Shown: positions 10,696 to 32,855 of the stretch, piece by piece
Layout of the letters: the number at the start of each line of letters is the position of its first letter
Numbering within the stretch: the first letter of the stretch is position 1
DNA from: Candidatus Puniceispirillum sp.
GTDB lineage: Bacteria; Pseudomonadota; Alphaproteobacteria; Puniceispirillales; Puniceispirillaceae
Assembly (NCBI GenBank): GCA_028382965.1
Contig: JAOEUK010000004.1
Coordinates: forward strand, 62,001 to 126,000
Direction of reading: 5' to 3'
DNA: 64,000 nt
The notes under the pieces: model-generated
What the model was told of the DNA's origin: nothing
Database searches by the model: none
What the model saw: only the letters and a program-made list of their open reading frames with translations
Position numbers and translations under genes: made by a program

Positions 10696-10760
10696 AAGTC
10701 TGACTATTTCAAATGTAAAGAAAGCCATTTCAACCCTCAAACCACCAAGGTGAATTGCCG

Positions 10761-11552
10761 ATGACTAATACGCTTCCTCTTATCGATGTGGTTCACGTTA
10801 ATGGCGTGGCAATGGTAACTCTCAATCGTCCTGAAAAACGTAATGCGATTAACGATGAGATGAGGGAAGCATTAATTAATGTTCTGGAAACTGTTAATAA
10901 AGACGACAGTATAAAAGCTTCAGTTTTGACTGGTGCTGGGACAGTGTTTTGTGCAGGTGGAGATATTGGTGGAATGCGCGACAGGCTGAATGCGCCGCCT
11001 GGAAAGGTTGGATTTAATGGTTGGAAGCGGCAAAAACAAACTCACCGTCTCATCTCAACAATTTATCACATGGATAAACCAATTATTGCTGCGGTGAATG
11101 GCGCAGCGTCAGGTCTTGGGTGTGATCTTGCGCTTGCCTGTGACTTTGTAATGGCTGCCCCTCCAGCCAGTTTTTCAATGGCCTATCTAAAACGTGGTTT
11201 AATTCCAGATGGTGGTGGATTGTATTTTCTTCCGCGGCGTGTTGGTATCAGCCGTGCTAAAGAATTAATCTTTAGCGCACGTACAGTCGTGGCAGATGAG
11301 GCGGAAAAAATTGGCCTTGTTGACCGGGTGACCAATGCTGAAGGTCTAGTCAAAGATGCAGCTAAGTGGGCGGAAAATCTAAGTTTTGGTCCAGCAAGTG
11401 CGATTGCTCTCTCAAAATCCATATTAAATCGATCAGTTGACCTTCCGCTCGAAACAGTCTTTGCACTTGGTGCTGAGGCACAATCGATCTGCTATGCAAG
11501 TGATGAACACCGCGACGCTGTCAATGCTTTCCTAGATAAACCAGCTCGCTAG
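10761..11552 (+). CDS. Enoyl-CoA hydratase/isomerase (crotonase) family protein
   Basis: 263 residues. Crotonase signatures: TLNRPEKRNAIND at the N-terminus, GAGTVFCAGGDIGGM for the first oxyanion-hole loop, and AAVNGAASGLGCDLALACD for the second. It acts on a CoA thioester in the cytoplasm (hydration, isomerization or related). The ATG at 10761 is chosen with AAGG ten bases upstream; a TTG at 10755 would add two residues. One base separates its stop from the CoA-transferase start, and the next two genes also abut, giving a four-gene operon. The exact reaction cannot be assigned from the motifs. Confidence 0.88.
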   Translation: MTNTLPLIDVVHVNGVAMVTLNRPEKRNAINDEMREALINVLETVNKDDSIKASVLTGAGTVFCAGGDIGGMRDRLNAPPGKVGFNGWKRQKQTHRLISTIYHMDKPIIAAVNGAASGLGCDLALACDFVMAAPPASFSMAYLKRGLIPDGGGLYFLPRRVGISRAKELIFSARTVVADEAEKIGLVDRVTNAEGLVKDAAKWAENLSFGPASAIALSKSILNRSVDLPLETVFALGAEAQSICYASDEHRDAVNAFLDKPAR

Positions 11553-11553
11553 A

Positions 11554-13929: not shown

Positions 13930-13931
13930 TT

Positions 13932-16091: not shown

Positions 16092-16138
16092 CGTAAAAAT
16101 CAATGCTGCACAATTTTTCAGACAGACGCAACGCTGGC

Positions 16139-17371
16139 CTATTTGGAAGAGGGCGTTTCACCGTCCAGAAAATAGCGAAGGCTTTTGGCAATTATTGCCT
16201 GATCTTGATTTACTTCCATTGTTTTTTGGACCTCACGCTGTCGCAAACGATGCGCGTATCCTTCAGGTAAATAGCAAAATGGGTCGTCTAACCCGAAGCT
16301 GTAGGCGGCATGGGCTGGCCAATCAGCATTCCACATTAGCTCGCGTGCCATTGCAATCATATCTGCATCGCCGGCTTGCAGTATCTCCTCAGCTTGTTGA
16401 GGTTCGGTAATGCCGCCAACAGCAACTGTACTCACTTTTGCTTGACGCCGGATAAGACCAGAAAAGCTGGCTTGATAGGCTGGTATTCTTGGTACCATTG
16501 GCATGTTGCTTGACCCAGAAATGCCTCCTGATGACACGTCAACCATATCGATGTCAATTTTACGAAGGGCTTTTGCAAGCGCAATAGCTTCGGTTAATGT
16601 CCAGCTTCCCCCCTTGCTATCAACAGCTGACAGTCGGAAAAAAACTGGTTTGTCCTTGGGCCATACATCACGAACTGCTTGAGCAACTTCGATTGCAAAC
16701 CGCATACGATTTTCAAGACAGCCTCCATAAGAATCAATGCGTTGATTTGATGCAGATGACAAAAATTGATGGATCAGATAGCCATGTGCACCATGAATTT
16801 CCACGATATCATATCCAGCATCAAGACTTAGTTTTGTTGCATCACGGAAGGTGTCAATGACCCGATTAATGTCATCTTGATCCATTTCCTTTGGTGGAAT
16901 TGGCCGTGGGGGGCTGACAGCTGCAGAGGGTGTCATGATTTGCCAAGGTGGAAAACCCTGAATTGCATCTGACTCAGTTAGCGGTCGCCAGTCCTCCATT
17001 GCGCCATGACATGATCCTTTGCGACCAGCGTGGCCAAGCTGGATTGCAGGAACTGCACCATGCTGTTTTATCATATCGGTAAGCTTACGATACGATTTTA
17101 CATGTTTGGCGTTGTAGATCCCAGCGCAAGAATGCGTTTTGCGCCCATTTGGCTCAACTGCTGTTTCTTCACCAAAAACTATACCACAACCGCCAATGGC
17201 GAGCCTGCCAAGGTGCATCATATGCCAGTCATTTGGCCCCCCATCAGTTGATAAATATTGGCACATTGGAGAGGCAATAATACGGTTGCGCACGATCACT
17301 GACCGAAGTTTTATCGGTGTAAAAAGCAAAGGGGTAGTCGTTATTTTATTTTGGGCGGGCAAGCTCACCAT
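16139..17371 (-). CDS. NADH:flavin oxidoreductase / Old Yellow Enzyme family (YqjM/NamA-like)
   Basis: 410 residues. Features of the thermophilic-like OYE class: IIASPMCQY with the active-site modulating Cys, WHMMHLGRLAIGG, AIQLGHAGRKGS with the substrate-binding His, EIHGAHGYLIHQFLSSASNQR, DSYGG and VGGITEPQQAEEIL for FMN phosphate. It reduces activated C=C bonds using NAD(P)H and FMN in the cytoplasm. It is convergent with the CoA operon (47 bases between stops), so it has its own promoter, in the spacer shared with the SET-domain gene. An alternative is a 2,4-dienoyl-CoA-reductase-like role, but the C-terminal Fe-S/Rossmann domains of that family are absent. Confidence 0.9.
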   Translation of the reverse strand: MVSLPAQNKITTTPLLFTPIKLRSVIVRNRIIASPMCQYLSTDGGPNDWHMMHLGRLAIGGCGIVFGEETAVEPNGRKTHSCAGIYNAKHVKSYRKLTDMIKQHGAVPAIQLGHAGRKGSCHGAMEDWRPLTESDAIQGFPPWQIMTPSAAVSPPRPIPPKEMDQDDINRVIDTFRDATKLSLDAGYDIVEIHGAHGYLIHQFLSSASNQRIDSYGGCLENRMRFAIEVAQAVRDVWPKDKPVFFRLSAVDSKGGSWTLTEAIALAKALRKIDIDMVDVSSGGISGSSNMPMVPRIPAYQASFSGLIRRQAKVSTVAVGGITEPQQAEEILQAGDADMIAMARELMWNADWPAHAAYSFGLDDPFCYLPEGYAHRLRQREVQKTMEVNQDQAIIAKSLRYFLDGETPSSK

Positions 17372-17958: not shown

Positions 17959-18771
17959 TTAGATTTTTGGTGATTCGTCCAAACGCACCATCAAATCATT
18001 CTTGCCAGTGACAGCTGGATATATTTTCATAACTTTTGGATCATGACCTGGGATAATATGCTGAGGGCTCGGTGCAACTCTATTCAGTTGATCAAAACTT
18101 TCCAACATTTTACCAACGTGAAAGGCAATTACAAATGGACGGTAGCTTTCCATATGTTCATAAAAGTGGCTGGCATCAGAGGCTAAAACTACCCAACCTC
18201 TTTTGGTGTAAATCGAAACAAATTGTAGCCCCGCTGAATGGCCACCGGTACGGTGCAGACGTATCCCAGCGGACAGTTGATCGTCACCATTATAAAAAGT
18301 GACCTTATTTGCATAGTTGAGCCGAACAATGCCGCAAACATCATCAAGTTCAAAAGCCTGCTGTAATTGCGGGTATTGCATATAACGGCCGGTGGCGAAT
18401 TGCATTTCTTGTTCTTGAAGGTGAAATTGTGCGGCAGGAAACCGATCAAAATTACCAGAATGATCATAGTGAAGGTGTGTAAGAATAACATCGCTCACTT
18501 GATCAGCAGCTATTCCAAATTCAGCTATTGTTTGAATTGGGCATTGGATAAAGGTACGACCCCGTTTCTCCGCCATTTTTGCAGTAAAGCCCGTATCAAT
18601 TACAACAATGTGATCTTGTGATTTAGCTAGCCAGACAAAATAATCCATTGGCATTGGACCGTCGTGGGGGTCACCACCAATAAAATGCTCACTGCGCAGT
18701 GCGTCACGCCTTGCGTAACGAATTGCATAAAGTTCATATATAGGAAAATTGGTTTGGTTGGCATTAGGCAT
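17959..18771 (-). CDS. MBL-fold metallohydrolase (N-acyl-homoserine-lactonase-like)
   Basis: 270 residues. The zinc motif is THLHYDHSG (His99, His101, Asp103, His104), with later metal ligands in HRTGGHSAG, LASDASHFY and IPGHDP. The size and the HFIGGDPHDGP segment before the domain fit the AiiA/AttM-like lactonase group of the metallo-beta-lactamase superfamily. It is cytoplasmic, with no signal peptide. Quorum-signal lactonase activity is a family guess; hydrolysis of another lactone or ester is equally open. It is convergent with the SET gene and divergent from the molybdoenzyme gene. Confidence 0.8.
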   Translation of the reverse strand: MPNANQTNFPIYELYAIRYARRDALRSEHFIGGDPHDGPMPMDYFVWLAKSQDHIVVIDTGFTAKMAEKRGRTFIQCPIQTIAEFGIAADQVSDVILTHLHYDHSGNFDRFPAAQFHLQEQEMQFATGRYMQYPQLQQAFELDDVCGIVRLNYANKVTFYNGDDQLSAGIRLHRTGGHSAGLQFVSIYTKRGWVVLASDASHFYEHMESYRPFVIAFHVGKMLESFDQLNRVAPSPQHIIPGHDPKVMKIYPAVTGKNDLMVRLDESPKI

Positions 18772-19011
18772 AATGGCTATCCGTTTGGTTGATAAAAAAG
18801 TGTCATAAATCTAAGTGTGCTGGTCTTCGCGATGCTGGCAACAAAAAAGCGTTCATTGGTAATGTTTTTGACAAAGCCTGAAATTTAAGGATTGCTGATT
18901 TTTGATGGATCTTTATCATCTATGGCGTATTGTTTTTATCGGACTTTATAAAGCTCAACTTTTTAGAAAACACAAAAGGCTAAGAGCTAATAGTTGATGA
19001 AAGGTATAAAC

Positions 19012-21336
19012 ATGAGTTTAACCAGCGCACATTGGGGTACCTACCATGCCCATGTTCAAGATGGTCGCCTGACTGGTTTAAGCCCTTTTACTGAAGATGC
19101 TGATCCAAATGAAATTGGTAAAGGCATTGTTGATGTCATTGATAATGAGTCTCGTATTAGCGGGCCAATGATTCGGAAAAGCTGGCTTGAATTTGGTCCT
19201 GGAAGCTGTCCTGAACGCCGCGGCTTGGATCCGTTTGTGCGAGTGGGATGGGATAAAGCAAATCAGATTGTTGCAGAAGAGCTTAACCGGGTAATCAAGA
19301 CCTTTGGCAATGAAGCAATTTACGCTGGGTCATATGGGTGGGCAAGCGCTGGGCGGTTTCATCATGCACAGAGCCAACTGCATCGGTTTTTGAATAGTGT
19401 TGGTGGTTATACCAAATCAGTTAACACTTATAGCTTTGCCGCAGCTGAGGTGATTTTACCGCATGTGATTGGGAGTTTCCGAGACTACATCTACAATCAA
19501 ACTAGCTGGAAATCAGTTCGAGACCATTGCAAATTATTTGTTGCGTTTGGCGGTGTGCCCCTGAAAAATGGACAAATTAGTCAGGGTGGACTTGGCCGAC
19601 ATATCCAGAAGGAATCTATTTTGGCAGCGTATGAAAATGGGGTTGAGTTTATATCAATTTCACCACTGCGGGCGGATATGATTGAGGATGTTAAGGCTGA
19701 TTGGGTGCGAATTAGACCAAATAGTGACGCAGCACTCATGATTGGCATATGCCATGTATTGCTTGATGAGGGTCTGCACGATCAGGTGTTTCTTGATCGC
19801 TACTGTGTTGGGTTTGCTAAATTTGCTGATTATTTGAAAGGATCTGTTGATGGTGTCATCAAAGACGCTGTATGGGCTGCCAATATTTGCGCCATTGATG
19901 CAGAGATGATCAAGACCCTAGCCCGCCGCATGGCTGCTGCTAGAACAATGTTGTCATTCAGCTGGTCTCTGACACGGCAGGCAAATGGTGAACAGCCGTT
20001 TTGGGCAGGCATTACGTTAGCTGCAATGCTAGGACAGATTGGTTTGCCGGGCGGTGGTTTTGGTCTTGGTTATTCGGCAGTAAATACGGTTGGCAACGAC
20101 ATAAAGCGGTTGCCGGTTGCAGCTTTGCCGCAAGGTGTAAACCCTGTTAGCAACTTTATTCCGGTGGCGCGCATTGCAGATATGCTGCTTCATCCAGGTG
20201 ATAGTTTTGATTATAATGGCGAGCGTTATGATTACCCTGATATTAAAATTGTATATTGGGCAGGAGGTAACCCTTTCCATCACCACCAGAATTTGAAGCG
20301 GTTGGTGAAAGCTTGGCAAAAGCCTGACACGGTCATTGCTCATGAATGGTGCTGGAATGCGCTTGCTAAACATGCCGATATTATTTTGCCTTGCACGACT
20401 ACGCTGGAACGAACAGATATCGCCATGTCTCCAATGGATAATTATTTTGTGTCAATGCAGCCAGCGATTTCAGCAGTTGATGATGCTCTTGATGACTTTG
20501 AGATTTTCAAAGGCATAGCAGCAAAAATGGGTTCGGAAGAAGCATTTACTGAGGGGCGCAGTGCTGAAGATTGGCAACGTTGGATGTATGATGTGACCAA
20601 ACAGGCATCTGCCCAGAAAGGCTATGAATTACCAAGTTATGATGTTTTTCGCGAGGAGGGGTGGTTTAAATTAGCACAACCAGAAGAAACAAATATCATG
20701 CTTGCTGACTTCCGCACAAATCCAGTCGCTAGCCCTTTGGCAACACCGAGTGGAAAAATTGAGATTTACTCTGAAACAATTTTAAGCTTTGGTTATGACG
20801 ATTGTGCACCACACCCATGCTGGTTTGAACCGCCAGAATGGCTTGGTAGTCTAGACTGCGGTGCTCGTCTTCATCTTGTTGGAAACCAGCCAACGGCTCG
20901 TCTTCATTCCCAGTTGGATCACGGTAGTATCAGCCTTGCAACAAAGATTAATGGTCACGAGCCAGTCAAAATTAATCAAGAAGATGCAAGCGCCCGCGCC
21001 ATTGTAGGTGGCGACATCGTCCGCCTTTACAATGATCGTGGTTCCTGCCTTTGTGGTGCAATTGTTAGTGATGATGTCATGCAAGGAGTGTTGATTGTTA
21101 GCACAGGAGCATGGTTCGATCCTGATACAGACGGGTTATCAGGCTTGACCTGTCGTCATGGTAATCCCAATGTTTTGACACCGGATATTGGCACGTCAAA
21201 ACTGGCACAGGGTCCAGCAGCGCATTCCTGTCTGGTTGATATAGAGAAATGGACCGGTGATTCAGTGGTAATTAATGCGCACAAACCTCCTATCATTGAG
21301 GATAATACGACGGCGAATGGCCTAGGTGCATCTTGA
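19012..21336 (+). CDS. BisC/TorZ-type molybdopterin S/N-oxide reductase
   Basis: 774 residues from the ATG at 19012, which has GAAAGG seven bases upstream; an upstream ATG at 18997 would add five residues. The molybdopterin oxidoreductase domain shows YAGSYGWASAGRFHHAQ, which holds the Ser molybdenum ligand region of the DMSO-reductase family, then YWAGGNPFHHHQN, VIAHEWCWNALAKHADIILP, and a C-terminal dinucleotide-binding domain (LHLVGNQPTARLHSQLD). No N-terminal Cys cluster, so no Fe-S centre. No twin-Arg signal, so it is cytoplasmic like BisC (biotin and methionine sulfoxide). It may reduce sulfoxides or N-oxides. The next gene overlaps its stop by four bases. Confidence 0.87.
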   Translation: MSLTSAHWGTYHAHVQDGRLTGLSPFTEDADPNEIGKGIVDVIDNESRISGPMIRKSWLEFGPGSCPERRGLDPFVRVGWDKANQIVAEELNRVIKTFGNEAIYAGSYGWASAGRFHHAQSQLHRFLNSVGGYTKSVNTYSFAAAEVILPHVIGSFRDYIYNQTSWKSVRDHCKLFVAFGGVPLKNGQISQGGLGRHIQKESILAAYENGVEFISISPLRADMIEDVKADWVRIRPNSDAALMIGICHVLLDEGLHDQVFLDRYCVGFAKFADYLKGSVDGVIKDAVWAANICAIDAEMIKTLARRMAAARTMLSFSWSLTRQANGEQPFWAGITLAAMLGQIGLPGGGFGLGYSAVNTVGNDIKRLPVAALPQGVNPVSNFIPVARIADMLLHPGDSFDYNGERYDYPDIKIVYWAGGNPFHHHQNLKRLVKAWQKPDTVIAHEWCWNALAKHADIILPCTTTLERTDIAMSPMDNYFVSMQPAISAVDDALDDFEIFKGIAAKMGSEEAFTEGRSAEDWQRWMYDVTKQASAQKGYELPSYDVFREEGWFKLAQPEETNIMLADFRTNPVASPLATPSGKIEIYSETILSFGYDDCAPHPCWFEPPEWLGSLDCGARLHLVGNQPTARLHSQLDHGSISLATKINGHEPVKINQEDASARAIVGGDIVRLYNDRGSCLCGAIVSDDVMQGVLIVSTGAWFDPDTDGLSGLTCRHGNPNVLTPDIGTSKLAQGPAAHSCLVDIEKWTGDSVVINAHKPPIIEDNTTANGLGAS

Positions 21337-22184
21337 GCTGGATTGAATGGCATGATCATGGGATGGAAGCTCAGTTTAGTCCGCGTGTTTCTATTGGAGC
21401 GGAGGCAGCGGCAGCTTGTCTTGACGAGTGGGCGTTGCAGTCTCAGGCACGAAAGCGTGAATTAACGGGCATATTTGACTTGCCATATGGTGAGCACAGT
21501 CTAATGCGGTTTGACTTACATTTAGGTGATAAGGATAAACCAGTTGTTATCAATTTTCATGGTGGTTATTGGCGTGCTCTCGATAAGTCTGATGTGAATC
21601 ATCATATGGCTGATTTGGCTAAGACTGGTTTTGGTTTGGTTAATATGAACTATCCGCTTTGCCCTGAGGTTAGCTTGGCCCAGATAATACAGCACTTAAA
21701 TCATGGCCTCGCAGAGGTGATTTCTAAACTGAATGACTCTGGCCACAATCAGCCAATTATTTTGATGGGCCACTCAGCTGGTGCTCATATTGCGATGCAC
21801 CTATCGCATAACGAAAAATTACATGGGCGCGTGGTGGGTATTGCAGCATTGTCCGGTATTTATGAAACTGAGTTGGTTAGGAAGCTGAAAGTCAACGATG
21901 ATGTGTGCCTGACAGAATCTGAAGCCAAAAAGTGGAACTGTATAACCCATATGCCTGCCGTTGGGCCATCATATTATGTTGCAGTAGGTGGCGGTGAACC
22001 CTCAGGCTGGATTGATCAATCATGGATTATGACACAGGCGCTAAGCCAACGTGGAGACCCTGTTAAGTTTCATGTTTGTGGAAAATTTCATCATTTCAAT
22101 TTGGTTGACTGTCTTTCAGATTCTAATAATTTAGACGGTGAAAAATTACACAGTTGGATGCTTAGCTTATATCATCAAGAATAA
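21333..22184 (+). CDS. Alpha/beta hydrolase (arylformamidase/kynurenine formamidase-like)
   Basis: 283 residues. NFHGGYWRA gives the HGGxW oxyanion-hole motif and ILMGHSAGAHIA the G-x-S-x-G nucleophile elbow; the catalytic His is likely in GKFHHFNLVD near the C-terminus. The HGGYW type is shared with kynurenine formamidase and hormone-sensitive-lipase-like esterases. It begins at a TTG overlapping the molybdoenzyme stop by four bases, so the two are translationally coupled. An ATG at 21363 is the alternative start. No kynurenine-pathway genes are near, so the formamidase role is not supported by context. Confidence 0.83.
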   Translation: MSWIEWHDHGMEAQFSPRVSIGAEAAAACLDEWALQSQARKRELTGIFDLPYGEHSLMRFDLHLGDKDKPVVINFHGGYWRALDKSDVNHHMADLAKTGFGLVNMNYPLCPEVSLAQIIQHLNHGLAEVISKLNDSGHNQPIILMGHSAGAHIAMHLSHNEKLHGRVVGIAALSGIYETELVRKLKVNDDVCLTESEAKKWNCITHMPAVGPSYYVAVGGGEPSGWIDQSWIMTQALSQRGDPVKFHVCGKFHHFNLVDCLSDSNNLDGEKLHSWMLSLYHQE

Positions 22185-22190
22185 GTTTTA

Positions 22191-23264
22191 TTAGTGTTTT
22201 GATGCTAGATAAAATGAAAGAGTGTCTGCACCGAGTGCTGCAACTTTTTTTGCTTGACCTCCAACTGAGGCTGAGTTGGATGCTGAAGCATTTCCTTCAA
22301 CATGACGTTTTCTCACACCTTGTAAAATAGCAGCAAATCTAAAACATTGAAAGGCTATCAGCGCCTCCCAATTTATAGGAGGGTTAAGATTAGTTTTTTG
22401 ACAGAAAGCTCTTATCAGCGCTCCCTCATCCGGAATGCCAAGTCTTACCCTATTGATCCCTCCAAGGCCTCCAATGGGCCATTTAGCGTCCATCCGTAAC
22501 ATTGTGCACCAGTAACTAAGGTCTATAAATATGGGGCCAAGAGTGCTTAATTCCCAATCGAGCAATGCAGCGATATGGCTTTGATGTTGAATCAGGAGGT
22601 TGTCGAGTCGAAAATCACCATGAATTACGCAAAACCCTGGAGGATCGGATTCAAAGCAATAGGGTAATTTGGTTATCAAAAACTCCATTCCAGGAATGAT
22701 TTCTGTTTCGCTGGCACGATATTGACGTGTCCATGTTCCAAGCTGACGGTCAATGTAGCCAGATGTTTTGCCAAAACCATCAAGGCCAAGTGCAATTGGG
22801 TTAAGTTTCGCTAGAGCTGCCAGTAAATCAATTTTTGCACTGAATAAAGCACTACGACCTGTTGAATTATAGTTATCAAGGGTCGGTTTGAAAAAGGTTT
22901 TTCCATTTACCTCACGCATAATAAAAAACTTTACCCCAATGACCGTTAGGTCATCACAATAAATGATCATTTCTGGAACAGGGATGTCGCTTGGCCTCAG
23001 AGCGCTCATGACTTGATATTCTCGATCGACTGCATGGGCTGATTTTAACAGCAATCCCACTGGTTGTGTGCGAAGCACAAAACGGTCTTCTTTGCCATTA
23101 TCTATGGTTTGAATCCTGTAAGTAGGATTTGATTGTCCTGTTGAAAATTTTTTTAGACCAGTAAGTATGCCAATCTGAGGAGCTGTTTTTTTTACCCATT
23201 TAGCCAACGGTTTTACAAAGGGTGTGCCTGTATTGTTGTCAAGGTTTTTGATGTTTTTTGTCAT
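22191..23264 (-). CDS. Phosphotransferase family protein (ACAD10/11 kinase-domain-like, LvaA-like)
   Basis: 357 residues with an APH/choline-kinase fold. KKFSTGQSNPTYRI is the nucleotide loop. VIHGDFRLDNLLI carries the catalytic loop (His215, Asp217, Asn222), and LLDWELSTLG supplies the magnesium-binding Asp236. SGYIDRQLGTWTRQYRASET is characteristic of the kinase domain fused to acyl-CoA dehydrogenase in mammalian ACAD10/11 and of LvaA in the Pseudomonas levulinate pathway, where it phosphorylates a 4-hydroxyacyl-CoA. Here it is divergent from an SDR, an ACAD and a CoA ligase, the expected partners. It converges on the alpha/beta hydrolase gene. Confidence 0.87.
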   Translation of the reverse strand: MTKNIKNLDNNTGTPFVKPLAKWVKKTAPQIGILTGLKKFSTGQSNPTYRIQTIDNGKEDRFVLRTQPVGLLLKSAHAVDREYQVMSALRPSDIPVPEMIIYCDDLTVIGVKFFIMREVNGKTFFKPTLDNYNSTGRSALFSAKIDLLAALAKLNPIALGLDGFGKTSGYIDRQLGTWTRQYRASETEIIPGMEFLITKLPYCFESDPPGFCVIHGDFRLDNLLIQHQSHIAALLDWELSTLGPIFIDLSYWCTMLRMDAKWPIGGLGGINRVRLGIPDEGALIRAFCQKTNLNPPINWEALIAFQCFRFAAILQGVRKRHVEGNASASNSASVGGQAKKVAALGADTLSFYLASKH

Positions 23265-23330
23265 GATATATTTCTGTTTTGCCAGTGATTTTTGCCTAAA
23301 TAAAAAATATCGATATTAAAGAAAGTGATG

Positions 23331-23346
23331 ATGACAAGATTGTTTT
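23331..23346. promoter_or_regulatory. Candidate operator ATGACAAGATTGTTTT (copy 2)
   Basis: Identical over 16 bases to 10637-10652 and also in a divergent promoter region, here between the phosphotransferase and SDR genes. The core ACAA-GA-TTGT is an inverted repeat. Confidence 0.4.
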
Positions 23347-23492
23347 GACCATCCCGACCCAGCTAGCGTAAGCTTAAAATGATTTTTAAAGTATTAAAAA
23401 AACAAAAACATTGACAATAGAAAAATCTGTACTGAACACCACTAATCACTTTGAAGCCGCCTTATAATAGATTTTATTTTTGGAAAAATTAT

Positions 23493-24227
23493 ATGACTAA
23501 ACAGCTTGATAAAAAATTGATTTTAGTCACTGGCGCTGCACGTGGGCTAGGCGCCCTATTTTGTCAAGCAATTGGTGTGGCTGGAGGTACGGTGCTTGCC
23601 CTAGGGCGCGATGAAGCTGCACTGGCAAAGATGGTGGCTAAATTACCAGGCAAAGGGCACGAGGTAATTGTTGCTGACGTTACCGACAGTGAATCTGTTG
23701 CCAATCAGTTAAAGGGACGCTGTTTTGATGGTTTAGTGAATAATGCAGGTGTTGCGATGAGTGCAGCACTTATTACAAGTGATGAAGATGAAGTAAGGCG
23801 TGTAATCGACACCAACTTTCTTGGTAGTTTATGGATATTGCAGGCTGCTGTTCCAGCATTAAAAGCATCTGGTGGCGGTGTTATTGTTAACATTGCTTCT
23901 GTGCTTGGCCACCGGCCACTGGCTCATACAGGCATTTATGCTGCAAGCAAAGCTGCTGTCATTCAGATGACCAGGTCTGCTGCTCTGGAACTGGCACGTG
24001 ATGGTATACGGGTGAATGCGCTTGCGCCCGGCTATGTGATTACTGATTTAAATCGATCTTTTTTGGAAAGTGAGACCGGTGTAAAGCTAAAAAAACGAAC
24101 GGTTTTTCGTCGCTTTGCCACCCCTGATGAGTTGATTCCGGCACTGCTTTTTCTTCTTGATCCAGCGAATACTTATATGACTGGTGAGACTTTGACCATT
24201 GATGGCGGTATGAGCGCTGGGCTTTGA
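23493..24227 (+). CDS. Short-chain dehydrogenase/reductase (SDR)
   Basis: 244 residues. LVTGAARGLGALFC is the TGxxxGxG NAD(P) loop, LVNNAGVAMS the NNAG motif, IVNIASV carries the catalytic Ser strand, and IYAASKAAV is YxxxK; DGGMSAGL ends the fold. A classical SDR oxidoreductase. The ATG at 23493 is preferred over a TTG at 23451 for length, with GGAAAA about ten bases upstream. It is first of three plus-strand genes with the ACAD and CoA ligase. In the levulinate (lva) pathway an SDR helps interconvert phosphorylated/hydroxyacyl intermediates, so a similar step is plausible here. Confidence 0.87.
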   Translation: MTKQLDKKLILVTGAARGLGALFCQAIGVAGGTVLALGRDEAALAKMVAKLPGKGHEVIVADVTDSESVANQLKGRCFDGLVNNAGVAMSAALITSDEDEVRRVIDTNFLGSLWILQAAVPALKASGGGVIVNIASVLGHRPLAHTGIYAASKAAVIQMTRSAALELARDGIRVNALAPGYVITDLNRSFLESETGVKLKKRTVFRRFATPDELIPALLFLLDPANTYMTGETLTIDGGMSAGL

Positions 24228-24266
24228 CATGATGTTTTTAAGATTAGAATAAAGGACTGGCATATC

Positions 24267-25475
24267 ATGGATTTTTCAATTGAAGCCAAATTACAAGCAG
24301 ATCAGGCTAAAATATTTGCCTTTGTGAAGGATCACATTGTGCCACTTGAAGCTGTTGCCAAAAACTATGACCCATATGATAATATTGACATGGCCGTGTT
24401 AAAGGGCCTTCGCGCGCAAGTAAAAGCCGCAGGTTTATGGGCACCTCAAATTCCGCTTGATCAGGGTGGGCTTGGTTATGGCCCGATTGGCATGGCTGTT
24501 TTGTATGAAGCAATGAACTATTCGATTTTTGGACCTGTTGCTTTTAATTGTGCGGCGCCTGATGACGGCAATATGTATATTTTAAATAAAGTTGCTAGCG
24601 AGGCACAAAAGGATCGTTGGTTGTTACCTATTATCAACGGCGATGTAAGATCCTCTTTTGCAATGACTGAGCCTGCGCCTGGCGGAGGTTCTGATCCAAA
24701 TATGATCCAAACAACTGCTAAGAGGGCAAATGGAAAATGGGTTATCAATGGGCGTAAATGGTATATTACTGGTGCTGGTGAAGCGGCGCATTTTATTCTG
24801 ATGGCAAAAACAGGTGACGGTGCCCGTGATGGATTAACTGCGTTTTTATTCCATCGTGATGACCCAGGTTGGCACATTGAACGGAGAATTGGCATTATGG
24901 GGCCTGAAGAGCATGGCGGGCATTGTGAACTTGTTTTTGATGGTATGGAATTAGATGATGAACGTGTGCTCATGGGAGAGGGAAAAGGCCTAAAAGTTAC
25001 ACAAATTCGTCTTGGGCTTGCCCGACTGACGCACTGCATGCGCTGGCTTGGCCTGTCCAAACGAGCCGTTGATATTGCTAGTGATTATGTTAGTCATCGA
25101 AGTGGCTTTGGCATCAAGTTGATCGATCGTGAGTCAATTCAAATGAAGCTTGGTCAAGCTGCTATGGATATTGAAATAGGCCGTGTTATGGTTATGCGAG
25201 CGGCATGGCGGATTGAGAATGGATCAAAAGCTCGACAGGACATTTCGATAGCAAAAATTCACGTCTCGCAACTACTTAATCGGGTCACTAGTGATGCTAT
25301 TCAAATTTGTGGTGCGCGGGGCTATTCGAAGGATACCGTGCTTGAGTGGATTTATCGTTATGGCCGTCAGGCGCTGCTTGTTGATGGTGCAACTGAAGTT
25401 CATCAAATGGTAATAAGCCGATTTTTGCGGCAGGCTGAAAGTAACTTTTGGGGGTGGGGTGTTGGCCATGACTAA
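24267..25475 (+). CDS. Acyl-CoA dehydrogenase (ACAD10/11, LvaC-like)
   Basis: 402 residues. SFAMTEPAPGGGSDPNMIQTT is the FAD-binding segment with the PGGGSDPN variant typical of ACAD10/11 relatives. KWYITGAGEA, FGIKLIDRESIQMKLGQAAMDIE and QICGARGYSKDT follow, and VDGATEVHQMVISR replaces the usual Y-E-G-T-S-E-I. With the separate phosphotransferase and SDR next door it reproduces, as individual genes, the domain set of the fused mammalian ACAD10/11. Those act on 4-hydroxyacyl-CoA through a phosphorylated intermediate. It is 39 bases after the SDR and 25 bases before the CoA ligase, which has AAGGAGG ahead of its start. Confidence 0.9.
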   Translation: MDFSIEAKLQADQAKIFAFVKDHIVPLEAVAKNYDPYDNIDMAVLKGLRAQVKAAGLWAPQIPLDQGGLGYGPIGMAVLYEAMNYSIFGPVAFNCAAPDDGNMYILNKVASEAQKDRWLLPIINGDVRSSFAMTEPAPGGGSDPNMIQTTAKRANGKWVINGRKWYITGAGEAAHFILMAKTGDGARDGLTAFLFHRDDPGWHIERRIGIMGPEEHGGHCELVFDGMELDDERVLMGEGKGLKVTQIRLGLARLTHCMRWLGLSKRAVDIASDYVSHRSGFGIKLIDRESIQMKLGQAAMDIEIGRVMVMRAAWRIENGSKARQDISIAKIHVSQLLNRVTSDAIQICGARGYSKDTVLEWIYRYGRQALLVDGATEVHQMVISRFLRQAESNFWGWGVGHD

Positions 25476-25500
25476 ACAGGAAAGTAAGGAGGTTTAATCC

Positions 25501-27147
25501 ATGTCTAATGAGCAAGCAGGAAAATTATTTTCTGCGTTGGATATGCAGGGTGCTGATACACAGCCATTGTCACCAGTGCATTTTATTCAGAGGGTTTCCG
25601 GTGTTTTTGGAGACAAAATAGCAATTTGTTACGGTGATCGTCGCGTCACTTATTCGCAATTTGGTGCGCGCTGCATCCAACTAGCTGCAGCCATTATTAA
25701 CGCGGGCATAAAGCCGCAAACCACAGTCTCTGTTTTTTGTCCAAATGTTCCGGAAATGCTTGAATTGCATTTTGCGGTCCCGATGACAGGTGCTGTTCTT
25801 AATACGATTAATACACGTCTTGATGCAAAAACAATTGCCACAATTCTTGACCATGGTGAAAGTCAAATGCTGTTTGTTGACTGTGAATATGCTGATGTTG
25901 TTGAGGAAGCATTGACCATTTGTGACCGCAGGATTCCAGTAATTGGTATTGATGATCCAGCGGTTGACATTGGCCGAGTGATTGGGGATGAGGATTATGA
26001 AACATTTCTTGCCCGTGCTCCAGCTGATACGCCCTTGTTTGATTTGCAAGATGAAACTCTGCCAATTTCCTTAAGTTATACATCAGGCACAACAGGAAAT
26101 CCAAAGGGTGTGGTCTATTCACATCGTGGAGCAGCATTAAATGCACTTGGTAATGTTCTTGCAATGGGGCTTACCACAAACAGCATTTATTTGTGGACCC
26201 TTCCGCTTTTCCATTGCAACGGTTGGACTCATCCTTGGGCAGTCACTGCGGTTGGTGGCACACATGTTTGCCTTCGCACAGTCGATCCAGCAGAAGTATT
26301 TCGTATAATAGAAGCTGAAGCGGTAACTCATATGGCAGCGGCACCAATTGTTTTGTCTATGTTGATTCATGCCCCTGATGGGGACAAGCCAAAGACAAAA
26401 AGATCTATTCCTGTGCAGGTTGCAACTGGGGGGGCCGCACCACCAAGCAAGGTTATTGACGATATGGAAACCATGGGTTTCAAAATCACTCACCTTTATG
26501 GGCTAACCGAGTCTTATGGACCATCCCTGATTTGTGAGATGCAGGCTGATTGGGAAGACTTGCCACTTGCAAAACGGGCGCAGAAAATGGCTCGTCAAGG
26601 AGTGCCGCACATACTTGCAGGGGATTTTAAAGTGGTTGATCCAGGGACTATGCTACCTGTCCCCACAGATGGAAAAACCATAGGTGAGATAGTGCTAAGA
26701 GGGAACACTGTCATGAAGGGCTATTTAAAAAACCTTGAAGATACAGCAAGTGCATCATCTGGTGGGTGGTTTCACAGTGGTGACCTTGCGGTTATGCATC
26801 CCGATGGCTACGCCGAAGTGAAAGACCGGTCAAAGGATATCATTATTTCGGGGGGTGAGAATATTTCTAGCCTAGAGGTTGAAGAGGCGCTTTATCAGCA
26901 CCCTGATATTATGGAGGCCGCTGTAGTGGCACGGCCTGATAGCAAATGGGGAGAAACACCTTGTGCTTTTATTACATTGAAGCCGGGTGTAGATGCCCCC
27001 GCGCCGGACGCTTTGCGAACTTTCTGTCGCGAACATTTAGCAAGCTATAAATTACCAACCCATTTTGTATTTTCTATTTTACCAAAAACCCAAACAGGTA
27101 AGATTCAGAAAACAGTTCTTCGTGAACAAGCAAAGGACATTAAATAG
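25501..27147 (+). CDS. Acyl-CoA synthetase (AMP-forming; LvaE-like position)
   Basis: 548 residues of the ANL superfamily. SLSYTSGTTGNPKGVVYSH is the P-loop (A3), LYGLTESYGP is A5, GWFHSGDLAVMHPDGYAEVKDR are A7/A8, IIISGGENISSLEVE is the hinge, and KTQTGKIQK contains the C-terminal catalytic Lys. It activates a carboxylic acid to its CoA thioester through an acyl adenylate. AAGGAGG ends eight bases before the ATG, one of the strongest ribosome sites in the window. It is last of the SDR-ACAD-ligase operon; it would supply the acyl-CoA that the phosphotransferase/ACAD pair acts on. Chain length is not readable. Confidence 0.9.
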   Translation: MSNEQAGKLFSALDMQGADTQPLSPVHFIQRVSGVFGDKIAICYGDRRVTYSQFGARCIQLAAAIINAGIKPQTTVSVFCPNVPEMLELHFAVPMTGAVLNTINTRLDAKTIATILDHGESQMLFVDCEYADVVEEALTICDRRIPVIGIDDPAVDIGRVIGDEDYETFLARAPADTPLFDLQDETLPISLSYTSGTTGNPKGVVYSHRGAALNALGNVLAMGLTTNSIYLWTLPLFHCNGWTHPWAVTAVGGTHVCLRTVDPAEVFRIIEAEAVTHMAAAPIVLSMLIHAPDGDKPKTKRSIPVQVATGGAAPPSKVIDDMETMGFKITHLYGLTESYGPSLICEMQADWEDLPLAKRAQKMARQGVPHILAGDFKVVDPGTMLPVPTDGKTIGEIVLRGNTVMKGYLKNLEDTASASSGGWFHSGDLAVMHPDGYAEVKDRSKDIIISGGENISSLEVEEALYQHPDIMEAAVVARPDSKWGETPCAFITLKPGVDAPAPDALRTFCREHLASYKLPTHFVFSILPKTQTGKIQKTVLREQAKDIK

Positions 27148-27234: not shown

Positions 27235-29037
27235 TTACTCAGGAATATAGCGGCTTCCAATCGCTGGTTGGTTGACACCAAGGCCAGGAATTTCCCAAAC
27301 ACCTGCCCCTGGTGGATTTAAATCTCCATTGATATTAGCGTCAATTAAATATGGTTGATTACTATTAATCCCTGCAAGAATAGCATCTCCCAAATCGCCT
27401 GGCCGGTCTATACTTACTCCTTGAACGCCAGCTGACCTTGCCATCGCAGCAAAATCTGGGCTGTAGGGCTGTCCAGTTTTTGGGTGATGAAAATCTGTTG
27501 CTAGTTCACGATTGTTTAAGTAGCCGCGTTGCAAGCCACGAATTGACCCATAAGCGTAATTGTTCCAAACAATCCAAACAACTGGGATATTATGTTCAAC
27601 AGCTGTTCCTAAAACATTTGCATGCATAAAAAATGCACCATCACCACATACTGCTACACAAGGCCTGTCCGGTGCTGCAAGTTTAGCGCCCATTACGCCT
27701 GCTACTCCAAAACCCATTGGACCAAAACCCATTGAGCCAATTAAGGAATCTGGACGAGTTGGGGTGCAAAACTGCAGTAACCAATTATGATGAACGCCAA
27801 TATCGCTTACTAAAATAGCATCTTCAGGAAGCGCCTTGTCAATTTCAACAGCAGCGCGCTGCGGATTAATTGGTGAGCTTTCATCAGCATATCCAGGTGC
27901 AGTAAAATTATTCCATTCAGCGCGATAGCTATCAATTCTCGTCAACCATTTCTGACTTTTGGTTGTTGGTTCGCTACTTTGGCCACGGCGATCTATTTCG
28001 GCTAGAATTTGGCGAAGAAATGTCCGAACATCAGCCATCAAACCGAGTGCTACTGGATAATTTCGTCCAATCTCTTCTGGGTCAATATCAACATGAATTA
28101 ACTGTGTTGGTGGAATTGTAAAAGAATAGCCTGGTATCCAAGAGCTTGATGTCCGGTCGTCAAATCTGACACCAAGGGCTAGTAGAACATCAGCTTGGCG
28201 ACAAGCGTGATTTGACTGATATGTGCCCCCGCGTTGAACAAGACCTAGGGATAATGCATGGTCTACTGGAATGGCGCCAAGCCCGCTGGCTGATGCAGCG
28301 ACGGGAATTTGCAGTCTTTCAGCCAATGCAAGAAGCTCATTGGCGGCGCCGCCATATCGCACGCCTTGTCCAACAAGAATGACGGGCCTTTCAGCAGAGA
28401 GAAGCATATCGACTGCTTTAATTACACCATCTGGATCAGCGCCACAACGTGATGAAATGTTTGCTGACCACATTGTTGGGTTGGGCGTTTCGCTAGCAGC
28501 ACTTTCCTTAAAAATATCAAAAGGTACATCAAGAACTACGGGGCCAGGTCTGCCTGTTGTCATAGTCTTCCAAGCTTGTCGTATCATTAGTGGTACTTGT
28601 TCACCGCGCGTAGGCTGGTAAACACGCTTACAATAGGCTTGCACCGTAGATGGAAAATCAGCTTGATAGTGGCGGTATATCTCTTGAAAAGCGCCACGGC
28701 CAAACTGGCTAGTTGGCACATTACCAGTGATTGCTAAAAACGGAACAGAGTCAAAAAATGCATTGCCAAGGCTAATTGGTAAGTTGGCTGATCCTGGGCC
28801 ACATGAAGTGAATGTAGCTGTTGGCTGACCAGAAACACGATAATAAACATCAGCCATGAAACCGGCAACGCTCTCATGATGAACGGAAATTGTGCCAATA
28901 TCGTCTTGGCGCTCATACATCGCATCAATTAGGCCAATATTGCCATGCCCACAAAGGCCAAAAATATAAGGCACCTTTTCCTTGATCAGGTAATCAATAA
29001 TCACCTGCCCACCATTTAATACATTTGTATCAGACAT
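27235..29037 (-). CDS. Thiamine-diphosphate enzyme (acetolactate synthase-like family)
   Basis: 600 residues with three ThDP domains. The PYR domain carries VHHESVAGFMAD with the activating Glu, the central domain holds VILVGQGVRYGGA, and the PP domain has VAVCGDGAFFMHANVL followed by WNNYAYGSIR, the GDG...NN motif that binds Mg and ThDP. It is not a housekeeping IlvB: no regulatory subunit gene follows. Substrates may be a 2-oxo acid or 2-hydroxyacyl-CoA. It is 160 bases downstream of the GntR gene on the same strand, with a YdiJ-like dehydrogenase further up, so the set may handle one 2-hydroxy/2-oxo acid. It is convergent with the CoA ligase. Confidence 0.85.
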   Translation of the reverse strand: MSDTNVLNGGQVIIDYLIKEKVPYIFGLCGHGNIGLIDAMYERQDDIGTISVHHESVAGFMADVYYRVSGQPTATFTSCGPGSANLPISLGNAFFDSVPFLAITGNVPTSQFGRGAFQEIYRHYQADFPSTVQAYCKRVYQPTRGEQVPLMIRQAWKTMTTGRPGPVVLDVPFDIFKESAASETPNPTMWSANISSRCGADPDGVIKAVDMLLSAERPVILVGQGVRYGGAANELLALAERLQIPVAASASGLGAIPVDHALSLGLVQRGGTYQSNHACRQADVLLALGVRFDDRTSSSWIPGYSFTIPPTQLIHVDIDPEEIGRNYPVALGLMADVRTFLRQILAEIDRRGQSSEPTTKSQKWLTRIDSYRAEWNNFTAPGYADESSPINPQRAAVEIDKALPEDAILVSDIGVHHNWLLQFCTPTRPDSLIGSMGFGPMGFGVAGVMGAKLAAPDRPCVAVCGDGAFFMHANVLGTAVEHNIPVVWIVWNNYAYGSIRGLQRGYLNNRELATDFHHPKTGQPYSPDFAAMARSAGVQGVSIDRPGDLGDAILAGINSNQPYLIDANINGDLNPPGAGVWEIPGLGVNQPAIGSRYIPE

Positions 29038-29197
29038 TGACGTTACTCCTTATGAATTTTGGAGGAGGCCTTGATGCAGATTTATCTTTGATGATGAAGT
29101 TTGGCATAAAATTATATCGATATCCAATGGGAATCTGCGTATTTTTAAGTCATTTTTGATTGCACAGAGGCTTTTTCTAACTTAGGCCAGATTTTTG

Positions 29198-29866
29198 CTA
29201 GCGCTTATTTTTATCCGAAATTGAATTAAAGCTTGAAACAAGGTCATTGAAACGAACGCCGACAATGTCGATGTGCTTTTTCATTGTCTCCACTGCACTG
29301 TCAGCATCACCCGCTTTCAGCGCCGACAAAATAATGTCATGTTCAGCCATTGATTCGGTCATCCTTCCGCGGACGCGTAACTGCAAGCGACGGAATGGGC
29401 GCAATCGATCGTGTAGCCGACGGGTTTTATTTGCAAGAAAGCTATTGCCGGACATTTTATAAATATGGTTATGCAAGCGTGAGTTCACCTCGTAATATTT
29501 AATGGTGTCATTGGCTTTTACGGCTTCCCGACAGATTTCATTGTCATCTTCAAGCACTTTGATATCTTTTATAGTGACGCGGCGTGCGGCAAGGCGAATA
29601 GCCATACATTCTAACTCAGTCATAACTTCGAACATTTCAACAAGTTGACCAAGGCTTGGTGATCGCACAAAGGTACCACGACGTGGCAAATGTTCAGCAA
29701 GCCCAGACTCTGTTAGTCTTTGTAGAGCCTCACGGACTGGTGTACGAGACACACCATAAAAACTTGAGAGTTCATTTTCATCGAGACGTTGTTTGTTATT
29801 AAGTTCACCATCAACGATGCGCTGCTCAAGGGAGTCTCTAATTTTTGCTGATGGCAGTCGTTCCAT
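29198..29866 (-). CDS. GntR family transcriptional regulator (FCD/FadR subfamily)
   Basis: 222 residues. The N-terminal winged helix-turn-helix (residues about 5-70) contains ENELSSFYGVSRTPVREALQRLTESGL and PRRGTFVRSP. The C-terminal all-helical FCD effector domain includes MTELECMAIRLAARR and a candidate metal/carboxylate site from HNHIYKMSGN and ESMAEHDIILSAL. FCD members usually sense small carboxylic acids. It starts four bases after the YdiJ-like stop, with AGGGA just upstream, so the two are coupled. The likely operator is the perfect palindrome TTTTTGTATACAAAAA at 32891-32906, ahead of the YdiJ-like gene, which would make it autoregulated. Confidence 0.88.
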   Translation of the reverse strand: MERLPSAKIRDSLEQRIVDGELNNKQRLDENELSSFYGVSRTPVREALQRLTESGLAEHLPRRGTFVRSPSLGQLVEMFEVMTELECMAIRLAARRVTIKDIKVLEDDNEICREAVKANDTIKYYEVNSRLHNHIYKMSGNSFLANKTRRLHDRLRPFRRLQLRVRGRMTESMAEHDIILSALKAGDADSAVETMKKHIDIVGVRFNDLVSSFNSISDKNKR

Positions 29867-29870
29867 TCAT

Positions 29871-32855
29871 TCAGATCCCTGCTTCTTGTACAATTTCTAT
29901 TTTATTATTAGTTACTTGCATCAACTCGTCTAAAACAGTGGCAACATGTTTTGCCTCACGGTCTGTGCCATCTTTGATCTGGCATCGGCATGAAGTGCCA
30001 TCTGCAATAATGATAGTTTCAGGTGAGGATTTACGAATTGTTGGGAGTAGCGTTGCGTTCGCCATTTTCATTGAGACATCAAACGTCTCTGCACCATAAC
30101 CAAATGCACCTGCCATGCCGCAGCAACTTGTTTCAATTTTTTCCACCTCTAAGCCGTCAACCCACGACAGAACTTTTTCAATAGGTTGAATTGCGTCAAA
30201 TGCCTTTTGGTGGCAATGCCCATGCAACAATGCTTTAGTTTTAGGAATTTTCAACGACAAGGGTTGCGCCTTTTTGGCCAGAAATTCTTCAAAAGTTAGC
30301 GTTTCCTTAGCAACAGCATTTGCTTCTTTGCTGTTCAATAACGCAGGGATTTCGTCGCGAAGGGCCAGTGTGCACGATGGTTCTAGGCCAACGATGGGTA
30401 TCCCTGCCATCGCAAAGGGTGCCATGGTCGTTACCAATCTTTTTGCCTCATTACGAGCACGGTCGACTAGACCGGTAGAGAGGTAGGTGCGCCCACAGCA
30501 AAGAGGTCGATCTAAACTGTCGTGGGGTGTTGGGGTAAAGACCTTATAGCCAGCAACTTCCAAAACTCGAACTGCAGCACGCAAGTTTTCTGGTTCAAAA
30601 TAACGGTTAAAGCTGTCAACGAAAAGTAAAACAGGTGGTTTATACGCTGTTGGTGTCCCGCTATGACCGGGCTTGTTTGGCAATTCATGATTGCGAAACC
30701 ATTGGCGCTGCCAGTGTGGCAAAGGACGGCGAGCTGTGAAACCAGTTAGCTTTTCACTTAGCCATGCAGCGCCGGGGATGAGATCACGCAAACGAATTAA
30801 TGGAGCAATGGCTGCCATGTAAGGTGCGTATTGGGGAAGATGAGCGATAAGCCGGTCATGTAATGATAGGCCGTGAGCTTCTGTGCGCAGCGCTGTAACT
30901 TCTATTTTCATGCGCGCCATATCAACGCCAGTTGGACATTCGCGTTTACAAGCTTTGCAGGAAACACATAGTTTCATTGTTTCCATCATAGCATTGCTAG
31001 CGAGTGCTGCAGGACCAAGCTGGCCTGACAATGCTAGACGCAGACTATTTGCCCGGCCTCTGGTAGAGTCCTGTTCATCGCGTGTTGCTCGAAAAGAGGG
31101 GCACATTACGCCGCCATCAAGCTTTCGGCAGGCACCATTATTATTGCACATTTCTACCGCACCTTGCAGGCCGCCAGCAGCTCCGGGCCATGCATCCCAA
31201 TTTAGCCTTGTTGGAAAATCATCAACGGAATATCCAGGCGCAAATCGGAAAAGTGACCGGTCGTCCATTTTTGGTGCATCAGTAATTTTTCCTGGGTTAA
31301 AAATGCCTTGAGGGTCAAACATCTGTTTTACTTTCCGAAAAAGCCCAGTCATTTTTGCACCAAACATTACTTCATTAAACTCAGACCGGGCGATGCCGTC
31401 TCCATGTTCACCAGAATGCGAGCCACCATATTCTTTTACAAGTTGAAATGCTTCTTCAGCGATGCCGCGCATCGCTGCCACATCATTGTTGTTTTTCATA
31501 TCAAGAACCGGACGAACGTGAAGGCATCCAACCGAGGCATGTGCGTACCATGTACCAGTAGTGTTATATTTGGCAAAAATACGAGTCAATTTATCAGTAT
31601 ACTCAGCAAGATCAGGTAAACTCACAGCGCAATCTTCAACAAATGAAACAGGTTTGGCCGTTGTTTTCATTGACATCATAATATTAAGGCCAGATTTACG
31701 CATTTCACTAATTTTTTCCTGATCCTCTTTTTCAGTGAGAATAACGGTGCCGCCAGTAAAATCTGCTTCCTTGTCCCAGCCAAAACCAAGATCAGAAATC
31801 ATGGCTTCTAGTGCAGCAAGACGCCGGGTGTTTTCAGCCGGATCATCTTCAGCAAATTCAACCACTAAAACAGCTTTGGGCTGGCCCTTTATATAAGCTT
31901 CAACAGTTGGCCGAAAGAGTGAAATTGAGCGGGCTAAATCAAGCATTGTACTGTCGATCAACTCTACAGCAACTGGGTCGAGAGAGACAAGATGCTGGGC
32001 TGCGTCCATAGCTTTGTAAAATGTTGGGAAATGACATAGGCCCATTAATTTGCCCGCGGGTAAAGGGGATAGTTTCAATGTAATGGCCGTCGAGTAGGCC
32101 AGTGTACCTTCAGAGCCAACCAAGAGGTGAGCCAGGTTAACTCCATCACCAGGTTGTCCATTGGGACGAAGTGCCATTGCATCAGGGATTAGTGCGTCAA
32201 TATTATAGCCACCAACACGGCGCAATACCTTTGGAAAGCTGGATAGAATGTCGTCTTGATAAGTTTTGCCCAAATTTAGGAGATTAGGCAGAATTTTGCC
32301 AAATACGCCGTTTGGCACTGGCTTTTTAGGATCATAGATACCGAAAGAGCTGTGGCTTCCATCTGCAAGAAGCGCGTCAATGGCAATAACATTATCACGC
32401 ATCATGCCGTAGCGTATTGATCGGCCCCCACAGCTGTTGTTTGCAGCCATGCCGCCGATTGTTGCTCGACTTGATGTTGAGACGTCGACAGGGAACCAAA
32501 GTCCATAGGGTTTCAGCTTGCGGTTCAATTCGTCTAGAATAATTCCTGGTTCAACAACACAAATCTGATTTTCAACGTCAAGATCCAGAATTGAATTAAG
32601 ATATTTTGTATTGTCTAATACCAATGCGTTATTTACAGTTTGGCCACATTGTGATGTGCCTCCCCCTCTTGGTAAAAGAGCCATGTCTTGTTCACGACAA
32701 AAAGCGATAGTAGCTTCTATGTCCGCAATTGTTTTTGGAACAACCACGCCATGTGGCATCATTTGATAGATTGATGCATCTGTAGCATAGCGTCCACGGG
32801 TAAAGCCATCGTGGAACAGTTCGCCGGAAAGTGATCGTTTTAAGTCTTTAAACAT
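29871..32855 (-). CDS. ydiJ: YdiJ-like FAD-linked oxidase / Fe-S dehydrogenase (D-2-hydroxy acid dehydrogenase)
   Basis: 994 residues, close to the ~1,018 of E. coli YdiJ. Domains in order: PCMH FAD-binding domain (about 35-230, LLPRGGGTSQCGQTVN, SSRATIGGMAANNSCGGRS), FAD-oxidase C-terminal domain (about 250-520, HASVGCLHVRP, SGEHGDGIARSE), ferredoxin-type Fe-S segment (CVSCKACKRECP), then two CCG-containing halves (CCGRTYLSTGL, CCGMAGAFGY). YdiJ oxidizes D-2-hydroxyglutarate; others in the family take D-lactate or glycolate. It passes electrons to the quinone pool or a carrier. First gene of the unit with the GntR regulator. The substrate is inferred only. Confidence 0.88.
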   Translation of the reverse strand: MFKDLKRSLSGELFHDGFTRGRYATDASIYQMMPHGVVVPKTIADIEATIAFCREQDMALLPRGGGTSQCGQTVNNALVLDNTKYLNSILDLDVENQICVVEPGIILDELNRKLKPYGLWFPVDVSTSSRATIGGMAANNSCGGRSIRYGMMRDNVIAIDALLADGSHSSFGIYDPKKPVPNGVFGKILPNLLNLGKTYQDDILSSFPKVLRRVGGYNIDALIPDAMALRPNGQPGDGVNLAHLLVGSEGTLAYSTAITLKLSPLPAGKLMGLCHFPTFYKAMDAAQHLVSLDPVAVELIDSTMLDLARSISLFRPTVEAYIKGQPKAVLVVEFAEDDPAENTRRLAALEAMISDLGFGWDKEADFTGGTVILTEKEDQEKISEMRKSGLNIMMSMKTTAKPVSFVEDCAVSLPDLAEYTDKLTRIFAKYNTTGTWYAHASVGCLHVRPVLDMKNNNDVAAMRGIAEEAFQLVKEYGGSHSGEHGDGIARSEFNEVMFGAKMTGLFRKVKQMFDPQGIFNPGKITDAPKMDDRSLFRFAPGYSVDDFPTRLNWDAWPGAAGGLQGAVEMCNNNGACRKLDGGVMCPSFRATRDEQDSTRGRANSLRLALSGQLGPAALASNAMMETMKLCVSCKACKRECPTGVDMARMKIEVTALRTEAHGLSLHDRLIAHLPQYAPYMAAIAPLIRLRDLIPGAAWLSEKLTGFTARRPLPHWQRQWFRNHELPNKPGHSGTPTAYKPPVLLFVDSFNRYFEPENLRAAVRVLEVAGYKVFTPTPHDSLDRPLCCGRTYLSTGLVDRARNEAKRLVTTMAPFAMAGIPIVGLEPSCTLALRDEIPALLNSKEANAVAKETLTFEEFLAKKAQPLSLKIPKTKALLHGHCHQKAFDAIQPIEKVLSWVDGLEVEKIETSCCGMAGAFGYGAETFDVSMKMANATLLPTIRKSSPETIIIADGTSCRCQIKDGTDREAKHVATVLDELMQVTNNKIEIVQEAGI

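Follow-up and report, generated by a model that had tools for sequence, protein, structure and literature searches.

A predicted split route for 4-hydroxyacyl-CoA in Candidatus Puniceispirillum, with an acyl-CoA dehydrogenase from a second HCMR clade

A four-gene module and its predicted chemistry

Analysis of a 64 000-nucleotide stretch of a Candidatus Puniceispirillum sp. genome (contig JAOEUK010000004.1, positions 62 001 to 126 000; hereafter the window) revealed, at 22191-27147, intact open frames for a kinase of the APH family, a short-chain dehydrogenase/reductase (SDR), an acyl-CoA dehydrogenase (ACAD) and an acyl-CoA ligase, which we consider likely to form a split route in which a separate kinase would phosphorylate a 4-hydroxyacyl-CoA and an ACAD would eliminate the phosphate. 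By sequence comparison, the kinase belongs with the LvaA/ACAD10-11 kinases, not with other APH families, and the ACAD, whose partner in SAR116 is a kinase of the LvaA type, belongs to another lineage (clade II) than the ACADs of the ACAD11/LvaC type, LvaA and LvaC being represented, like the other Lva proteins, by their published descriptions and not by their sequences. Gene content, residues, phylogeny and genomic linkage are observed; the reactions, the 4-position and the chain length are what we infer.

The clustering of these four functions, with the kinase on the opposite strand, had been noticed in the original prediction, and the frames and Pfam classes bear it out. The kinase (22191-23264, minus strand; APH, PF01636, 120 bits) is transcribed opposite to, and diverges from, a plus-strand trio made of the SDR (23493-24227; adh_short), the ACAD (24267-25475; N-terminal, middle and C-terminal domains) and the AMP-binding ligase (25501-27147), an acyl-CoA synthetase of the PRK08162 subfamily (NF006020, 771 bits for a cut-off of 677). 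All these Pfam matches are above cut-off and NCBIfam is consistent with them on the four gene classes. The ligase, as predicted entry enzyme, would make 4-oxo- or 4-hydroxyacyl-CoA; the SDR, a putative 4-oxo/4-hydroxyacyl-CoA oxidoreductase, would interconvert the two; the predicted 4-hydroxyacyl-CoA kinase would phosphorylate the 4-hydroxyl, and the ACAD, as a candidate 4-phosphoacyl-CoA eliminase, would use its bound flavin to eliminate the phosphate via transient oxidation, elimination and re-reduction, giving a 2-enoyl-CoA that could enter ordinary beta-oxidation. According to the accessible text of two papers (PMC11342911, PMC12440821; the same limit holds for every paper cited here), kinases of this type use 4-hydroxyacyl-CoA rather than the free acid as substrate, after which 2-enoyl-CoA is produced by the ACAD without an external electron acceptor. 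Since the same residues are present in the window pair, phosphorylation-elimination is the best prediction for it.

The ACAD: conserved residues in a separate clade

When aligned, R248, R253, H256-C-M-R259 and D373 of the window ACAD correspond to R626, R631, H634-CMR637 and D753 of ACAD11, in which R626, H634, R637 and D753 are the substrate-phosphate and catalytic residues of 4-phosphoacyl-CoA chemistry (PMC12440821). To that extent the description of the protein as ACAD10/11-like holds, but both ACAD trees rule out its membership of the clade of ACAD11 and 4hr3. The second of these trees was built with seven motif columns masked, after removal of 16 of the 53 earlier rows (near-copies and long branches) and addition of 20 ordinary ACADs. 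In it, the 34 rows out of 57 that have the R-H-R-D set (two rows with HAMR in place of HCMR were counted as motif-bearing) form one group, with support 100/99, apart from ordinary ACADs; the R-HCMR-D trait takes a single change on this tree and is absent from its 23 other ACADs. The group comprises three subclades, I (with ACAD11 and 4hr3), II (with the window) and III (L244-L247), whose branching order is not resolved. Clades I (100/100) and II (100/99) are separate, and the same split was found in the earlier tree. The clade III ACADs (L244-L247, L248-L251) have the R-R-HCMR-D set and score 350-373 bits with the clade II profile.

The distance between the clades is also visible in pairwise identity, the window ACAD being 31-32% identical to ACAD11 and 34% to 4hr3, while bacterial clade I ACADs are 46-57% identical to ACAD11. 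A loop gives a further distinction: it reads TEPAPGGGSDPN in the window ACAD and conforms to TEPxPGGGSDP in clade II, and ACAD11 and the bacterial proteins of clade I have TExxV(A/S)SSDA there. The 'PGGGSDPN' stretch, first taken as a sign of an ACAD10/11-like enzyme, instead sets clade II apart from ACAD11 and clade I, which have xV(A/S)SSDA. As to structure, the AlphaFold (AF2) model of the ACAD (predicted local distance difference test, pLDDT, 88) has 4hr3 and two ACAD11 entries as its top matches (Z 47.0, 46.6 and 45.9).

Clade II ACADs were found in 48 of the 372 genomes of a class sample, the window's own genome included (all rows above 600 bits, the next one at 403 bits), and in 16 of the 398 genomes of a phylum sample, again own genome included, in which four genomes have a clade III match at E <= 1e-100; the two sets overlap (G000, G218, G248, G088 and G097). 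A third set, of 80 loci from named genomes, consists of the best-scoring 80 of 573 and over-samples SAR116; the 48 class-sample loci thus provide the fairer figure. The clade II rows that entered the earlier tree from 17 named loci had been selected with 'HCMR' as a filter. When the best-scoring ACADs are taken without this filter, the motif is present in 48/48 of the class sample, 80/80 of the named-genome loci and 19/19 of the clade II and III proteins of the phylum set. Among the named records with a clade II ACAD are Azospirillum, Methylobacterium, Roseicyclus, Actibacterium and Burkholderiales, and the idea of a 'marine' route proves too narrow in view of Azospirillum, Methylobacterium and Burkholderiales. 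The possibility that the kinase-ACAD pairing is found in SAR116 only is likewise ruled out by the class sample and the named records.

The kinase

The best PDB matches of the window kinase are 3dxp (6e-65) and then the kinase domain of ACAD11 (3.9e-54). Its residues D217, N222 and R173 align with D220, N225 and R176 of ACAD11, reported as catalytic or CoA-contacting (PMC12440821). Another residue of the same paper, R86, falls on no arginine of ACAD11 under the numbering that we used; at the alphaC glutamate the window kinase has R81-E82. The AF2 model (pLDDT 89) superimposes on 3dxp with a Z score of 38.1 and a root-mean-square deviation of 2.3 over 327 residues.

A phylogeny of the kinase had been suggested as a check, an unrelated APH family being the unfavourable outcome; the kinase instead joined 3dxp and the ACAD11 kinase. 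In the kinase tree it stands with SAR116 and UBA7371 kinases (support 100/100), inside the group that also contains the ACAD11 kinase and 3dxp, and apart from Rv3168 and from a divergent APH family that we call APHb; a narrower group of 35 rows has support 82/91. A second kinase tree separates the window kinase, together with the ACAD11 kinase and 3dxp, from the 9o56 group (100/100). The name of the family might evoke aminoglycoside resistance, and there is indeed a weak match to an APH(3') model, but its 29.5 bits are to be compared with a cut-off of 205 bits, and tree and structures put the kinase with acyl-CoA kinases. We have rejected this identity, which we hold to be next to impossible.

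Linkage of kinase, SDR and ligase to the ACAD

A kinase of the APH family lies at most 5 kb from the clade II ACAD in 30 of the 48 class-sample loci, in 69 of the 80 named-genome loci (5 of the 11 misses are near a contig end) and in 13 of the 19 loci of the phylum set (11/15 for clade II and 2/4 for clade III). An SDR similar to that of the window is found within 2 kb in 33/48, 67/80 and 11/19 loci of the same sets, respectively, and a similar ligase within 5 kb in 11/48, 24/80 and 7/19. For 20 ordinary ACADs used as controls, none of the three genes was detected at these distances (0/20 each). It should be kept in mind that the controls were hand-picked from the SAR116 order only, the clade II sets being taxonomically wider, and that the hidden Markov models used for kinase linkage were built in part from kinases of the 80 loci; the same models were run on the controls.

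One may ask whether the module is simply an ordinary beta-oxidation operon, with a normal ACAD dependent on electron-transfer flavoprotein and a kinase that is an unrelated neighbour. The best NCBIfam names for the ACAD are those of other ACADs, although all are far under cut-off, and 18 of the 48 clade II loci are without a near kinase. On the other side stand the lack of a kinase within 5 kb of any control ACAD, the restriction of the R-HCMR-D set to one group of the tree and the linkage of clade II to two unrelated kinase classes (see below), so that we view an ordinary operon as very improbable.

Several observations nevertheless weigh against the phosphorylation-elimination route as we propose it. 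The structural margin is small, the ACAD11-type entries having Z scores of 45.9-47.0 and ordinary ACADs of 44.5 and below. Identity to the assayed ACAD11 is only about 32%, and the position of the substrate could therefore differ. Ligase linkage is weak, as the class-sample figure indicates. As for the 18 loci with no kinase nearby, an LvaA-type kinase is encoded elsewhere (E <= 1e-50) in 11 of the genomes and an APHb elsewhere in one more, G218, which leaves six of 48 clade II genomes where neither kinase class was found at the thresholds used (G124, G286, G284, G173, G275 and G131); four of the six are less than 90% complete, and G173 and G275 are at least 95% complete. Finally, the arginine equivalent to R176 is missing in 7 of the 8 APHb partners examined, for which another substrate is possible.

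Two kinase classes and two modules

The kinases of the 30 linked class-sample loci are of the LvaA type in 7 cases and of the APHb family in 23. The APHb rows that we examined retain the catalytic Asp and Asn. To account for the label 'beside ACAD-II', the kinase tree requires three changes, all forced by the starred branches, which may correspond to one gain and two losses; kinase rows without an ACAD label were rechecked over all open reading frames, and none is beside a clade II ACAD. The kinase of L127, a tree neighbour of the SAR116 kinase group, sits beside a clade I ACAD. That clade II has partners from two distantly related kinase classes suggests that the conserved element is a phosphorylated substrate; the simplest reading is that the function demands a kinase, not a particular one. 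APHb genes adjoin many clade II ACADs (e.g. L116:9145-10239, L201, L213) and are labelled by Pfam as APH only. At L116, in another SAR116-family genome, a gene for a beta-keto acid cleavage enzyme (BKACE; 6976-7902) also adjoins the clade II ACAD.

Six SAR116 genomes (G042, G045, G051, G055, G057 and G059; loci L110-L115) contain, besides the clade II ACAD, a clade I ACAD elsewhere in the genome, motif-checked in each case and each time beside a 9o56-type kinase; G039 and G053 have, by search score only, a further ACAD match of a strength similar to the clade I ones. The retention of both modules in SAR116 genomes of about 2 Mb suggests that they use different substrates. This raises the question of whether phosphorylation-elimination in clade II takes place on another hydroxyl or scaffold, for instance on 5-hydroxyacyl-CoA, on a hydroxy acid with a branch or a ring, or on the side chain of a steroid. 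The remoteness of clade II from clade I, and their presence together in these six genomes, would be in keeping with it, as would the resemblance of the kinase model to the 25-hydroxysteroid kinase 9ft5 (Z 28.8), which is APH-like with a substrate other than a 4-hydroxy compound. But the kinase is much nearer to 3dxp, and the phosphate-contacting residues of ACAD11 are retained in the window ACAD; we therefore find such a substrate unlikely, if clearly less so than an ordinary operon, and keep 4-hydroxyacyl-CoA as the predicted one.

At this point a broader proposal may be put forward, for which we see about even chances. Clade II could be an unrecognised, ancient lineage of phosphate-eliminating ACADs that occurs in Alpha- and Betaproteobacteria, differs from LvaC and ACAD10/11 in its range of substrates and has exchanged kinase partners across two distantly related classes; clade III could be a further such lineage, and SAR116 bacteria may run clade I and clade II routes in order to recover oxidised lipids or lactones of different kinds.

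Conservation of the layout and the intergenic region

The order kinase-SDR-ACAD-ligase is kept in 9 of the 10 loci fetched from the genus, the tenth being broken by a contig end. All four genes are also present in G096 (UBA7371), and kinase-SDR-ACAD is kept in the six fetched unbroken loci (6/6) of f4, another SAR116 family. Recurring in this way, the arrangement is not due to chance. Exceptions are L100/L158 and L157, where kinase and ACAD are divergent and the SDR was not found between them. Of the 15 further genus members analysed, 12 have a kinase match, which in three is only fragmentary or divided between contigs; the remaining three, with no match, are all less than 85% complete.

The window's own genome has a size of 2.38 Mb. 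Its only ACAD match at E <= 1e-30 is the clade II protein itself, and it has two APH genes in total and two thiolase genes, the latter located away from the module. Records of the SAR116 cluster and of Candidatus Puniceispirillum are among the named relatives nearest by ACAD (84-92% identity).

Kinase and SDR are separated by a divergent intergenic region (23265-23492) of 228 bp if the SDR starts at ATG 23493. This start is probably to be preferred to TTG 23451, because the proteins of genus relatives are mostly of 244 amino acids. Of seven further genus loci inspected, five share a block at 23343-23372, whose match within the window is unique; L156 is without it, and in L154 an over-extended kinase frame prevented a judgement. 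A scan of the gap for consensus promoters gave 3 sites where shuffled sequences gave 1.4 on average, which is near chance and uninformative.

Comparison with known systems

The chemistry and the split gene arrangement are already known. The lva operon of Pseudomonas putida (LvaA-E) shares with the window the kinase, ACAD, SDR and acyl-CoA ligase classes, present as clustered separate genes; the ligase and the SDR would match, by class only, the roles of LvaE and LvaD. The window differs in that its ACAD is of clade II and its kinase is on the opposite strand. As for LvaB, which we take to be a DUF6285 protein, a search of the window's own genome revealed no DUF6285 gene. In P. citronellolis, lvaB was not found in the cluster region either (PMC6692424), so a missing LvaB would be nothing special. 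The LvaC protein is reported as ACAD10/11-like, with 56-62% identity, and B. pseudomallei orthologs of kinase and ACAD can substitute for the ACAD10 domains, without mention of LvaB in the accessible text on that experiment (PMC11342911).

With mammalian ACAD10 and ACAD11, the window shares a kinase of the same group and the R-R-HCMR-D set of ACAD11, and the same chemistry is expected; unlike them, its proteins are unfused and, as seen above, its ACAD is of a separate clade. The closest solved structures, 3dxp (Reut_A1007) for the kinase and 4hr3 (an ACAD from M. abscessus, clade I) for the ACAD, both lack an assigned function, and their PDB titles name no tested one. The 25-hydroxysteroid kinase (9ft5, 9fsg) has an APH-like fold and phosphorylates a lipid alcohol, as would be expected of the window kinase, but it is 17-18% identical (Z 28-29) and acts on another substrate class.

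In the accessible part of the open-licence literature, we came across no description of another HCMR clade of ACADs whose kinases are exchanged. Elucidation of the mammalian route for 4-hydroxy acids is recent (2024-2025; PMC11342911, PMC12440821) and involved ACADs from one clade, as far as the accessible text goes. A second clade that shares the active-site residues, has replaceable kinases and coexists with clade I in a single small genome would offer a direct way to probe the residues that set substrate choice, and the same contrast addresses whether fusion matters and which oxidised lipids are consumed by surface-ocean bacteria. Genes for which family models offer no more than the generic names acyl-CoA dehydrogenase or APH would, in addition, acquire a function open to experiment.

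Neighbouring genes

Near the module, 17959-18771 encodes a lactonase-like metallohydrolase with a metallo-beta-lactamase fold and weak similarity to acyl-homoserine lactone lactonases, and 21333-22184 an esterase-like hydrolase. Both genes are kept beside the module in 9 of the 10 fetched genus loci, the tenth being a short contig. They would fit an entry from lactones or esters. The gene at 18994-21336, for a molybdopterin S/N-oxide reductase similar to BisC/TorA (918 bits, below the cut-off of 1017), also stays with the module in genus relatives. Further away, 10755-17371 holds an acyl-CoA cluster with enoyl-CoA hydratase-like and CoA-transferase-like proteins, another ACAD, an ADP-forming acyl-CoA synthetase-like protein and a reductase of the Old Yellow Enzyme type. 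On the other side, at 27235-32855, genes for a thiamine pyrophosphate enzyme, a GntR regulator and a YdiJ-like FAD/Fe-S 2-hydroxyacid dehydrogenase are kept together in the genus.

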